A DNA stretch of 64,000 nucleotides from Flavobacteriales bacterium (GTDB taxonomy: Bacteria; Bacteroidota; Bacteroidia; CAIKAF01): assembly GCA_025055635.1 (NCBI GenBank), contig JANWWQ010000002.1, positions 41,714 through 105,713 of the forward strand, read 5' to 3'. How positions within the stretch are numbered: the first letter of the stretch is position 1; each line of letters begins with the position of its first letter. Made by a program: the position numbers and the translations under genes. Positions 5,850 through 59,745 of the stretch are shown here, piece by piece. The notes beneath the pieces were generated by a model. That model was not told where the DNA came from and made no database searches. It saw nothing but the letters and a program-made list of their open reading frames with translations.

Positions 5850-5998
5850 GAAATTTTTTTCACAAAGCCCTATGGCTAATTGGAGTAGCAGAAAGAGGGA
5901 GTTGCGGGAAAGCGACCGGCGGATATATACAAAGGAAGCGGAGGGCAGCCGGAGGCCGGGGGTGTCAGCTGGCACACCAGGGGCACGCCCCAGAGAAA
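5850..5998. repeat. GC-rich ORF-free segment, possible copy D of the dispersed element
   Basis: The spacer between fumC and the HAD gene is AT-rich up to about 5870, then becomes purine- and GC-rich. It holds small hairpins such as GGGGC-AC-GCCCC. GTAGCAGAAAGA at 5885-5896 matches GTGGCAGAAAGA at 50750-50761 at 11 of 12 positions. Otherwise the relation to copies A-C is weak, so membership in the family is tentative. No U-tract makes it a standard terminator. Confidence 0.25.
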
Positions 5999-5999
5999 A

Positions 6000-6716
6000 T
6001 TAAAAGGAAATTTTTTCTAAAAGGGTAGGCAACTCAGGAAGGGATCGTAAGAGTTGAAGGTTTTGAAAATCCCTGGAGGAGGGCCCTGGAAGCCCTGAAG
6101 GATTGTACCAGAAAGTGTGGAAGCCCATACGGACTGCCGGTAGGATGTCAATTTCTAGGTCGTCGCCGATGAAGGCGGCTTGAGACGCAAGGGCTCCAGC
6201 ACGGCGGAGGGCATAGCGAAAAATGCGCGGATCGGGTTTGCGGTAGCCGGATCGCTCGCTGGTGGTGATTGTGGTAAAAAGGTGGTGGATGCCGGAGGAG
6301 CGGAGCTTGGTGCGCTGGGTGATTTCAAAGCCGTTGGTGATAATGTGAAGGCAATAGCGGGAATGCAGAGATTGGAGAGTTTCCCGGGCCCCTTCTTCTA
6401 AGAGGGAGCCCTGGGGAGCAATATCTAGAAAAGTGCGGCTAAGGCGACGGGCCAGGTTGTTGGAGGGCAGACCCACATTTTGAAGGCAGATTCTAAATCG
6501 GAGAAAACGCAGATGCGGACCCGTGATCCGCCCCTGACTGAAAAGTTTCCACAGGCGTTCATTGGCTTCTGTGAAGGCGGCTAAAAAAATCTCTTTAGGA
6601 ACATGACCCAGTTCGTTGTAGAATTGGCGGTGGAGTTCCTCTATGGCATGGGCAAGGTTAGCACGGTGGTTCCACAGCGTTTTGTCCAGGTCAAAAAAAA
6701 TGTGGCGTAGGGACAT
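6000..6716 (-). CDS. HAD-superfamily hydrolase, YjjG/YfnB-like nucleotidase
   Basis: The haloacid dehalogenase fold is shown by the nucleophile motif FFDLDKTLW near the N-terminus, motif II in IITNGFE, the conserved lysine in RKPDPRIF and motif IV FIGDDLEIDI. Length (238 residues) and layout match the YjjG group, which dephosphorylates nucleoside monophosphates, including non-canonical pyrimidines. A role in nucleotide clean-up fits the upstream uracil phosphoribosyltransferase gene. It is the last gene of the minus-strand run upp - membrane protein - HAD, 5 nt after the preceding stop. Confidence 0.85.
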   Translation of the reverse strand: MSLRHIFFDLDKTLWNHRANLAHAIEELHRQFYNELGHVPKEIFLAAFTEANERLWKLFSQGRITGPHLRFLRFRICLQNVGLPSNNLARRLSRTFLDIAPQGSLLEEGARETLQSLHSRYCLHIITNGFEITQRTKLRSSGIHHLFTTITTSERSGYRKPDPRIFRYALRRAGALASQAAFIGDDLEIDILPAVRMGFHTFWYNPSGLPGPSSRDFQNLQLLRSLPELPTLLEKISF

Positions 6717-49221: not shown

Positions 49222-50301
49222 TCAGAAGTCTTCATTAAAGTTAAACATGTCATCGTTAAGCGTGCGGGCCTGTGGCGATCGGATGCTGGCCATGACCCCT
49301 GCTTTCTGATACTCTGCTACACGACGTTCAAAAAAGTTGGTTTTGTTTTGCAAGCTGATAAAATCCATAAAGTCAAAGGGATTTTCCGAATGATACACGC
49401 GGGAACAGCCTAGTTCAACCAGCAACCTGTCGGCAATAAATTCAATGTATTGCGACATGCTTTCGCTGTTCATGCCGATGAGGCGCACCGGCAGAGCGCT
49501 GCACACAAACTCTTTTTCAATGTCCACTGCTTCTGTTATTATCTGGACCACCCTTTCCTTAGGTAGTTTATTGACAATGTGGTGGTTGTAAAGGTGACAA
49601 GCAAAATCACAATGCAGGCCTTCGTCGCGGGATATGAGTTCATTGCTAAAAGCCAGTCCCGGCATTAAGCCCCGCTTTTTGAGCCAAAAAATGGCGCAAA
49701 AGCTACCGGAGAAGAAGATGCCTTCTACGGCAGCAAAAGCAATGAGGCGTTCCTGGAAAGTTCCTTTTTTTATCCAGCGCAGGGCCCACTGGGCTTTCTT
49801 TTTCACGCAGTCCATGGTCTCAATGGCGCGGAACAGGTAGTTTTTCTCAACCGGGTCTTTGATGTAGGTATCAATGAGCAGCGAATAAGTCTCGCTGTGG
49901 ATATTTTCCATCATCAATTGAAAGCCATAAAAGAATTTGGCTTCTGTGTATTGTACCTCACGCACAAAGTTTTCGGCCAGATTTTCATTCACGATGCCGT
50001 CGCTGGCAGCAAAGAAGGCCAGCACATGTTTGATGAAGTAGCGTTCATCGTCATTGAGTTTGTTGTTCCAATCGGACAGGTCTTCTGACAGGCTTATTTC
50101 TTCGGCAGTCCAGAAGCTGGCTTCAGCTTTTTTGTAGAATTCCCAAATATCCTTGTGCTCTATGGGATAAAGTACAAAGCGCTGAGGATTTTCCTGAAGG
50201 ATGGGTTCTGGTAACTCCGCTTGAATGTTTGATGACGAAACTGAAACGACAGGCACGGAGGAGGAAGCTGAGGATTCTATGGGATAGGTTCTAGAGTTCA
50301 T
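49222..50301 (-). CDS. nrdB: Class Ia ribonucleoside-diphosphate reductase beta subunit
   Basis: The small subunit carries the diiron centre and tyrosyl radical. The ligand helices [13 protein letters not shown] and [14 protein letters not shown] show the Asp, Glu, His and radical Tyr in the E-x2-H-x3-Y pattern, so this is a tyrosyl-radical (class Ia) enzyme. The C-terminal tail [13 protein letters not shown] is the NrdA-binding peptide. About 35 Ser-rich residues precede the core. The ORF track starts at a TTG (50307); the ATG at 50301 is preferred. It is the first gene of nrdBA. Confidence 0.95.
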
Positions 50302-50660
50302 AGGCAAGCAACATTTTTATTGTGAGACAAATAATTTTTCCCTTTTAAGCAGCATTGTTTGAATCATCGTTTAGATGGAAAAACTGAAAGGAATTAATGG
50401 ATCCGCATGGCAAAGGTGGAAAATACAAGGTCTTAATTTTTTTTCATTTGCGAACAGCGAACAGGGTTTTATTAACATAGATTTAATGTGCCTTGTGCTT
50501 AGCGAAGTTAAAAGGTTATTTCAGGCTTGTATTCACAATTTTCAGAAATGAATGAACAGGGGGAGGTTAATTGGATTTGGAATATACATCTAATTGATTA
50601 TCAATATACAATAAAAAAGCAAAGGAAATAGAATGCTCATTATCAACATTTTATTTCCTT
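50302..50660. other. Intergenic region upstream of nrdB
   Basis: AT-rich spacer before nrdB. No NrdR-type palindrome was seen. It runs into the GC-rich repeat segment beginning near 50700. Confidence 0.5.
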
Positions 50661-50699: not shown

Positions 50700-50880
50700 A
50701 ATAGGACCGGATTCCAAAAGGAAAATTTGCAAAAAATCCCAGGGCAGGTGTGGCAGAAAGAAACTTTTGAAGCCGTAATGAATACGGCCCCAAAGATGGG
50801 GGGAGGGACGTGGAGATCGGCCCTCCGACCGCCGGGCCGAAGGGGGCATGCTCCAAATTTCATTCAAATGGGCTTTTGAT
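50700..50880. repeat. GC-rich ORF-free element, copy B1
   Basis: Hairpin-dense, no credible ORF. GCCGTA-ATGAA-TACGGC (50772-50788) is a perfect hairpin. CCCCAAAGATGGGG (50788-50801) is the equivalent of CCCCAAATGGGG in copy A and CCCCGAATGGGG in copy B2. AGAAAGAAACTT near 50756 matches AGAAGAAACTT near 31 in copy A. GTGGCAGAAAGA (50750-50761) matches the 5885 segment. Relations were found by eye and are less firm than for B2. Confidence 0.4.
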
Positions 50881-51035
50881 GTACGCTACTTTTAAAGAAT
50901 CCCTCTTAACATTTGGTACCCCCCTGCAACGGCAAAAATCCATTTGCACCACCCTGTGCCAAGGAATATTCCCGGTAAAGAAAAATTGGATTCCAAAGGC
51001 TGGAGATGTTGGCCCACCAAAATGTTTTCTGCCCT

Positions 51036-51425
51036 ATCCAGCAGACCTATGATGAAAGCCAGCAAGTGTATACCCCGAATGGGGAAAGGCCCTTGTCTAT
51101 GGTAGAATTCCCGATAGGCAAGGTCAGAGAAAAGGAAGCTGCGTTGAATAGTAAAGAATGTGCCGGTCCGGGGGAAAATTAAAGGTAGGCCTTAATGTGT
51201 TGGGGGCCCGCCCAACATGGGAAAGCCTCCCTATGAGAATGAGGAGGCCCGTCTGATATATCAGGCGGTGGAACCACCAGGCAACTCCGTGTTAAAAGAT
51301 GTCGCGGAGGGTTCGTGGGATTCCAAGCCTCCCAAAAGTGACAGCCCATGGCAAGTACAGAGAGCAGGAGAGGGGAGGAGCGAAGCCTCACTATCTGGGG
51401 CCCATAAAACCTCGGAAATGGCGGC
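51036..51425. repeat. GC-rich ORF-free element, copy B2
   Basis: It carries the four blocks shared with copy A in the same order: 51036-51066, CCCCGAATGGGGA 51073-51085, AAATTAAAGGTAGGC 51176-51190 and AGGAGCGA 51376-51383. From GTGCCGGTCCGGGGGA (51160) to the end it also resembles copy C (59503-59700). A perfect hairpin TGTTGGG-GGCCCG-CCCAACA lies at 51198-51217. The sequence ends exactly at the rmuC stop. It could be a non-coding RNA on either strand or an extragenic repeat. Confidence 0.5.
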
Positions 51426-52952
51426 TTAAGAATTCCCCTGGCGGTCGGTGAGGACCTGGGAGGGGCTGGAGGCTTCTGCGGGGCCTTCCGGTTCCTCATA
51501 AAGTACTAGCTGGGCTTGAGCTTCCGGTAAGGCCTCCACATGGCGGAGGCGCCGTTCCACTTGTTGGGTGCGCGTTGTGATAAGTTTATCCAGCTCGGTT
51601 CCTGCCTCTTCTACCTTTTTCCGAACCTTGAGAAGCATATCCCGGAATTTACCGAACTCTGATTTTACAGCACTAAGGATTTTCCAGACTTCAGCCGAGC
51701 GTTTTTCAATGGCCAGGGTGCGAAAGCCCATCTGAAGGCTATTGAGGATAGCAGCCAGCGTGGTGGGACCGGCTATGATGAGCCGTAGCTCCCGCTGGAT
51801 ACGGTCCACAACTTCTAAATTTTGAAGGGCCTCCGCGTACAGACCCTCGGTGGGCAGAAAAAGGATGGCAAAATCGGTAGTGTGGGGAGGGCAGATGTAT
51901 TTCTGACGGATGTCGGTGGCGTTTCGAAGCAAAATGGCCCCCAGCTCCTGGCGGGCTTTACGGATGTCTTCCATATCGCCAGACTCTTGGGCGTCCAACA
52001 AGCGTTGGTAGACCTCCAGAGGGAACTTGCTGTCTACGGGAAGCCAAACAGGCTTATCCTCCTGACGGCCAGGCAGCTTCACAGCGTATTCCACTGTTTC
52101 ACGGCTTTCGGGGTTGACCCGCACGTTCTGGGCATATTGCTCGGGGCTTAAGATTTGTTCAAAAATGTTGCCCAACTGCACTTCACCAAGAATTCCTCGG
52201 GTTTTCACGTTGGAGAGCACCTTTTTAAGGTCGCCCACGTTGCTGGCCAGGGCTTGCATCTCACCCAGTCCCTTATGCACCTGTTCCAGTTGTTGGCTCA
52301 CCAGTTGGAAGGATTCCGTCAGCCGGTTATGGAGGGTTTCCTGAAGTTTCTGATCAACGGTTTGGCGCATCTGTTCCAGTCTTTCTTCAGTGGTTTTACT
52401 GATTTGTTGTAAATGGCTGTCTACAGTGTTTTGAAGGTTTTGTAAGCTGGTGTTGATCTCAGTCCGGAAATGATTAATGGCTTCTATATTGTTGTTTAAA
52501 CGTTCCTGGACAGCTCTTTGGATCCCCTCCAACTGTTGATTTTGTTCTGTACGGTTTTCCCGCAAACGGGCGTTCACTTCATCTCGGCTGGCTGCAAAAG
52601 CCTCCTGTAGGGTATTTCTCTGTTCTGTTAAGAGCTGGTGCAGGCTATTGGAGAGATTTTGAAAGGCGCTATGGAGCTGTTGCAGATTTTGGGTGAGGAG
52701 CTCGTTTTGGCGGCCCAATTCCTCACGCATCTGCTGACCTTGCAGGGTGAGCATATTGACCAGCTCCTGTCTCTGCTGCCCGGAAAGTGTGAGCACATCT
52801 TGCCGCAGGGTGTGCTGTTGTTGGGTGATGCGCTCTTCCATCAGCCGCAGGGCTTCATTGGAGGATCCGGCTTGGTATCGGGATATACGCCATAAAATCA
52901 AGATCTGTATTAAGAGGATGATTCCAAGGAGCAGGGGTATGAGAGTTTCCAT
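51426..52952 (-). CDS. rmuC: DNA recombination protein RmuC
   Basis: This 508-residue protein has one N-terminal transmembrane segment (METLIPLLLGIILLIQILILW). A long coiled-coil of Gln/Arg/Glu-rich heptads follows (about 25-240), then the conserved RmuC domain with LPVDSKFPLEVYQRLLDA and FLPTEGLYAEAL. RmuC has a nuclease-like fold and limits inversions between repeats in E. coli. It lies alone between a repeat-rich intergenic region and a divergent glycosyltransferase gene. Confidence 0.92.
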   Translation of the reverse strand: METLIPLLLGIILLIQILILWRISRYQAGSSNEALRLMEERITQQQHTLRQDVLTLSGQQRQELVNMLTLQGQQMREELGRQNELLTQNLQQLHSAFQNLSNSLHQLLTEQRNTLQEAFAASRDEVNARLRENRTEQNQQLEGIQRAVQERLNNNIEAINHFRTEINTSLQNLQNTVDSHLQQISKTTEERLEQMRQTVDQKLQETLHNRLTESFQLVSQQLEQVHKGLGEMQALASNVGDLKKVLSNVKTRGILGEVQLGNIFEQILSPEQYAQNVRVNPESRETVEYAVKLPGRQEDKPVWLPVDSKFPLEVYQRLLDAQESGDMEDIRKARQELGAILLRNATDIRQKYICPPHTTDFAILFLPTEGLYAEALQNLEVVDRIQRELRLIIAGPTTLAAILNSLQMGFRTLAIEKRSAEVWKILSAVKSEFGKFRDMLLKVRKKVEEAGTELDKLITTRTQQVERRLRHVEALPEAQAQLVLYEEPEGPAEASSPSQVLTDRQGNS

Positions 52953-59459: not shown

Positions 59460-59745
59460 GCCTGAAGGGGCGCCTCAAGGTGACAAGCGGTCCGACCTGT
59501 GGGTGCCGGGGGATAAAAGTGAACTTTAGGCGCATTTTGGTTTGAGCCGTTCAGCACTTGGAAGTACCTTCCGTGGAGACGTCCTTATTAATTTAGCGCC
59601 AGGAAATGCTCCTGATGAAGAGACCTTCCAGGGGGCTCATGGAAGAGTTTAAGAGATTGTGTTCCTTTGGGCAGTTGAGAGCTGCTCCTACGGAGCCGAT
59701 GCCCCCGCAAGGGTATGCCCACAATATGTATTCAGTGAAAATTAA
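59460..59745. repeat. GC-rich ORF-free element, copy C
   Basis: This is the spacer between the convergent PIG-L and GT22 genes. It has gene-like GC but no ORF. Blocks GTGCCGGGGGATAAAAG (59503), CAGCAC.TGGAAG.ACCTTCCGTGGAGA, AGGGGGCTCATGGAA and GAGAGCTG..GGAGCCGATGCC parallel B2 positions from 51160 to 51390 in the same order. Perfect small hairpins GGAAG-TAC-CTTCC (59560-59572) and GCTCC-TAC-GGAGC (59684-59696) are present. The alignment is by eye with gaps. Confidence 0.42.

Follow-up and report, generated by a model that had tools for sequence, protein, structure and literature searches.

Decayed copies of a dispersed, folded extragenic element related to Flavo-1 in a Flavobacteriales genome

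The 64,000-nucleotide stretch of DNA analysed here (the window; C59:41714–105713 of a 2.3-Mb, 136-contig Bacteroidota genome) carries only decayed, internally deleted copies of a structured extragenic element that is dispersed through the genome. We think that these two copies probably descend from an element that is copied around the genome and recognised through its folded strand. This reading draws on the copies themselves, their structure, the covariation of their arms, their placement, and constraint in one genus alongside decay in another, all of which were observed. The genome of the metagenome-assembled Flavobacteriales bacterium SKYG25, which belongs to the same genus and was the nearest relative used, served for comparison and is called the congener below.

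Distribution, anatomy and fold of the element

Places in the genome that match B1, one of the two window copies, align with one another over ~200 bp (E 1e-22), and using one of these as query brought the family to light. The element is ~190 nt long and dispersed, with intact copies of about 85–230 nt, and is built in a constant order: Box1 (GCGTGAGGGAT), variable hairpins (P1), Box2 (AGCCCGACC), a variable hairpin (P2) and Box3 (GGGNCACGCCC). The boxes are common to copies from many genomes, and the stretches between them are variable and self-complementary.

A covariance model trained on 27 copies from the same genus identified about 27 distinct loci in the genome (E<1e-4). BLAST gave 13 matches in the congener, and Schleiferia thermophila has at least 26 distinct copies. 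The Box1–Box2 pattern, with a gap of 41–101 bases, occurred in 32 of 396 Bacteroidota genomes and up to 26 times in one genome; a reversed control pattern had no match in the same 396. Hosts include S. thermophila, Chryseobacterium species, several hot-spring Bacteroidia, other Bacteroidota and Treponema metagenome-assembled genomes. The Treponema copies come from several such genomes; they could be misbinned, although the error would then need to have happened repeatedly. One of these Treponema contigs (L112) also has below-threshold matches to the TD-1 and TD-2 RNAs at 1712–1899. A Chthoniobacterales record (SKW161, locus L190) holds a copy closely resembling those of SKW94, which comes from the same type of sample, and is probably a misbinned contig. 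Some proteobacterial records match only Box1, apparently by chance. Phage and plasmid collections, searched with two queries, yielded no copy, and literature searches on the box sequences and on intergenic repeats of Bacteroidetes turned up nothing relevant.

The MFE fold has the same shape across different lineages. A closing stem P0 (GCGTG/CACGC) is followed by an unpaired A, P1 (GGG/CCC at its base), unpaired GA, P2 (CCC/GGG), one unpaired base and the return of P0. P1 starts with a 1x1 mismatch and continues with a 3x3 purine loop (GGA/GGA or GNA/GGA). An intact family member folded with a z score of −6.8, and the three-way junction was the MFE structure in 96 of 105 copies. Because the fixed boxes partly build this count in, the variable parts were tested separately by exchanging half-arms between copies in four groups and comparing the folding of the chimeras. 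Exchange of P2 half-arms weakened folding in every group (z −9.0 in Schleiferia, −6.2 in the phylum sample, −5.4 in the window's genus and −9.5 in the others), as did exchange of P1 half-arms (z −3.5, −9.5, −3.0 and −6.2, respectively).

Alignments pointed the same way. In Schleiferia, 99.2% of alignment cells pair and seven pairs have changed on both sides; shuffles gave 0.7 such pairs and slid controls no more than 4. In the window's genus, with decayed copies included, 78% of cells pair and there are 51 double-change cells versus 26.6 in shuffles. An alignment of this genus was too misaligned to yield a structure with RNAalifold alone, and we used a structure from one copy and the chimera test. 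The junction residues and the boxes are fixed, and the outer arms are free to vary while pairing is kept. At four loci of SKW94 (L213, L210, L198 and L223), P1 holds another palindromic repeat nested within it (CGTCATTGCGAGGGCGAAGCCCGAAGCAATCTC...GAGATTGCTTCAC...GCAATGACG), and the arm is still self-complementary.

Window copies and the GC-rich spacers

One of the two window copies lies at 5890–5998 on the plus strand. It consists of a GCGAC-like upstream stretch, a 5' half at 5933–5959 (AGGAAGCGGAGGGCAGCCGGAGGCCGG; nhmmer E 2.2 on its own), a perfect hairpin at 5961–5978 (GGTGTCAGCTGGCACACC) and an exact Box3 at 5980–5990 (GGGGCACGCCC). A pattern search matched 5938–5959 as a 22-mer with 2 mismatches in 22 (chance expectation 0). 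Nine nucleotides separate the end of Box3 from the stop codon, at 6000, of a HAD-family hydrolase gene on the opposite strand (6000–6716, minus strand; Pfam PF00702/PF13419), which is the placement typical of the family.

B1 (50790–50858, plus strand) is a short degenerate copy within the segment 50700–51425, in the spacer between a ribonucleotide reductase small-chain gene (49222–50307) and an RmuC gene (51426–52952). It retains a remnant of the 5' half together with the P2 and Box3 region (GGCCCTCCGACCGCCGGGCCGAAGGGGGCATGCTC). When 50700–51425 was searched against its own genome by BLAST, one significant and several weak matches were obtained, all to the same 40–60 bases of B1; the best was to a copy on contig C79 (E 6e-5), with weaker ones on C53, C81 and C117. 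An nhmmer match covers 50809–50853 (E 6e-4), and 50819–50853 matches the family as a 35-mer with 2 mismatches in 35 (chance expectation 0). B1 breaks the placement rule, as the nearest gene on its Box3 side starts only at 51426. The AT-rich portion of the same spacer contains an imperfect palindrome of 39 nt (82%) at 50622–50660.

Both window copies are short forms without most of P1. Too short and internally deleted, they are missed by the covariance model, and the whole window had no Rfam match at gathering score. Comparable short forms occur at other loci of the genome (for example, L002, L063 and L065), and many copies in the genus are worn or truncated. Synteny with the congener breaks in both spacers, which leaves no clean empty site to read at either copy. 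Elsewhere the congener has an intact copy (C40:84–271) upstream of the orthologue of the AhpC/TSA gene at 1143–1682 of the window, where positions 800–1200 of the window are very AT-rich only; copy presence therefore differs between congeners.

An initial annotation had grouped three other segments, A (1–240), B2 (51036–51425) and C (59460–59745), as one family of hairpin-dense intergenic elements, possibly non-coding RNAs or repeats, with B1 as a possible tandem half-copy and 5850–5998 as a possible weak fourth copy. Its description of A, B2 and C as intergenic, with near-genic GC content and no credible open reading frame, was borne out, and inspection of their stop-to-stop frames by eye gave no convincing decayed gene. 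Their kinship through common blocks was not: blastn with a word size of 7 returned no significant alignment between any of them. The likeness of A and B2 includes one 15-base near match (AAATTRAAGGTAGGC) and reached P=0.017 in a shuffle test under a strict scoring scheme, with an inconsistent 0.15 under a lenient one; the parallel between B2 and C reached P=0.027 with the lenient scheme alone, and neither value survives correction for 20 tests. No further copies of the three segments turned up in the genome or in 16 relatives, where the best match was at chance level (E 0.03), and their folding was unremarkable against shuffled sequence (z −0.84 for A, −1.16 for B2 and −0.47 for C). When run on the window, the covariance model of the element placed no member at any of the three segments.

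With no significant alignment, no extra copies and ordinary folding, A, B2 and C are rejected as one family, whether of non-coding RNAs or repeats, and we regard that earlier reading as highly improbable. All three are unexplained GC-rich spacers. What the annotation had sensed in the neighbourhood is nonetheless real, since a structured extragenic family does pass through B1 and 5850–5998: B1 is a true repeat copy, of a family to which B2 does not belong, and the fourth copy is a short copy of the element and not of the A/B2/C set.

Strand, placement and candidate roles

In each of the 105 copies the written strand folds better than the complementary one, by a mean of 8.2 kcal/mol. The ratio of G.T to A.C mismatches is 17:2 in Schleiferia and 23:12 across all copies when folds are restricted to Watson–Crick pairs; in the alignment of the window's genus it runs in the opposite direction (88:114). 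This weakly points to the written strand, in a way that does not separate RNA from single-stranded DNA, and the mixed mismatch ratios count against the reading favoured here.

We surveyed placement in 96 copies, using simple, ORF-based and thus crude gene calls. Box3 lies beside the stop codon of an opposite-strand gene in 57 of the copies (median 25 nt) and before the start of a co-directional gene in the other 39 (median 69 nt); on the Box1 side, genes are about 240–280 nt away. The proximity of Box3 to stop codons, and the retention of a copy by one gene across six Chryseobacterium species, would suit an intergenic or 3'-UTR element of the mRNA whose stop lies beside Box3, acting as a stability, terminator or processing signal. 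We consider such a role unlikely: 39 copies precede a start instead, neither end is followed by a T-run, and the strand that folds better and carries the conserved purine internal loops is antisense to that gene.

In the six Chryseobacterium species the copy is retained between the same two genes. Within this orthologous set the Box1–Box2 region has a mean identity of 94%, compared with 81% for adjacent coding sequence and 45% for the left, Box1-side spacer; in a second orthologous set (n = 4) the figures are 93%, 84% and 28%. Orthologous Chryseobacterium copies are more highly conserved than the gene beside them. In C. soldanellicola (L172, compared with L141, L165, L170, L195 and L222), the P2 hairpin has been wholly swapped for an unrelated one, with the boxes and P1 intact.

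The strong constraint at orthologous loci is also what would be expected of a multi-copy structured non-coding RNA, in which each intact copy would be a small RNA gene transcribed from the Box1 side; its promoter would lie in the ~250-nt spacer there and its 3' end would abut the neighbouring gene. The greater stability of the folded strand in 105 of 105 copies and the promoter space on the Box1 side agree with this, and Weinberg et al. (2010, PMC2864571) class Flavo-1, to which the element is related (see below), as a likely RNA that is not a switch and not cis-regulatory. Against it, 28 Schleiferia copies inspected by eye have no fixed promoter-like sequence before Box1, genomes carry tens of copies each, with decay extensive in the window's genus, and in RNA-seq of F. 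psychrophilum, Flavo-1 matches lie sense or antisense to transcripts alike and many are untranscribed (PMC9723704). A multi-copy RNA is the main and a serious rival, although on this evidence we hold it to be rather doubtful.

The same frequent non-transcription and indifference to strand in F. psychrophilum fit an element that acts at the level of DNA, and we return to the folded, copied element as the probable explanation. Under it, the folded single strand, either displaced DNA or a transcript, would be recognised by a protein of the host or of a mobile element, and copies would multiply to new genomic places and settle beside gene ends in the manner of REP sequences. Selection may later retain some copies, with Chryseobacterium as an example, and let others decay like the two in the window. 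Several observations weigh against this scheme: no transposase or clean-bordered insertion polymorphism came to light for the element, the phage and plasmid searches described above returned no copy, and a host function would account equally well for the conservation at orthologous loci.

Comparison with attC sites, REP sequences and Flavo-1

Integron attC sites are conserved in structure more than in sequence, have variable inner hairpins and often lie just downstream of a stop codon. The element resembles them in being conserved in structure, in its variable inner hairpins and in its frequent position near a stop codon; it differs in that no attC core sequences, cassette array or integrase were noticed.

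With the REP sequences associated with RAYT (Y1) transposases, the element shares a dispersed, extragenic distribution, folding of one strand, many copies per genome and a position near gene ends. REPs, however, are short single palindromes of 20–40 bp (PMC3733652). In both the genome (C124, locus L111) and the congener (C8, locus L103), a type III restriction-like gene has the one IS200-type (Y1, RAYT-like) gene downstream of it, and in the congener an array of other short palindromes (CATCCCTTCGGGATG, GAACCCGAAGGGTTC and CGACCCCTACGGGGTCG) comes next; this is a typical REP/RAYT locus of the genus and is separate from the element. Neither locus contains a copy of the element. Because the repeats flanking these Y1 genes are of the CATCCCTTCGGGATG and GAACCCGAAGGGTTC types and belong to a different family, the resident RAYT was rejected as the mobiliser of the element; that the only IS200-type gene of either genome is an unlikely agent tells in turn against mobilisation.

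The closest known relative is the Flavo-1 RNA of Rfam (RF01705), so that the family is not as undescribed as the initial annotation had supposed. Five Flavobacterium-type Box1–Box2 loci (L237, L241, L242, L247 and L253) pass its gathering score of 42 bits, with 49–69 bits, and three fall below it (L230, 40.2; L225, 35.9; L224, 29.2 bits). Flavobacterium-type copies share with Flavo-1 a core of GGGAT, GNAGYGGA flanking both sides of a variable hairpin, and then AGCCCGA, and both occur as many copies dispersed between genes across Bacteroidota. A P1 stem with a GGG..CCC base, a purine internal loop and conserved box flanks is present in the MFE folds of all groups. RF01705 nevertheless had no match in the genome or the congener, though it has many in other families of the class. 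It likewise gave no match to four same-genus loci (L002, L004, L005 and L007) or to five others (L046, L080, L088, L140 and L222), and nothing in the intact copies tested from the window's genus at E up to 1 or 5 or in intact Schleiferia copies.

The Rfam model (76 positions) corresponds to P1 only; the element adds the closing stem P0 and the arm P2, and its P1 is enlarged by extra hairpins. Since RF01705 covers P1 only and finds nothing in the window's genus, the element is an extended, GC-rich relative of Flavo-1 that the current model does not recognise, and we do not file it as a member of RF01705. A further and more tentative proposal, which we think has a limited chance of being right, is that RNA is not the primary form of Flavo-1 and its extended relatives. 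They would instead act as single-stranded DNA that folds into the site recognised by a mobilisation or recombination system, itself as yet unrecognised, in Bacteroidota (and Treponema). The three-way junction of such a site would be fixed, its arm tips could be exchanged freely, and its polarity would put Box3 at gene boundaries.

Flavo-1 was listed as a likely RNA in 2010 and has had no function assigned to it since; RNA-seq of a flavobacterium gave no clue to one. The present analysis adds that its Rfam model describes a single arm of a three-way junction, that related copies reach lineages in which Rfam detects none, and that copies have a fixed polarity beside gene ends and, at orthologous loci, exceed coding sequence in conservation. 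With this extended structure, polarity and conservation, the choice between RNA and DNA becomes directly testable in cultured Chryseobacterium or Flavobacterium.
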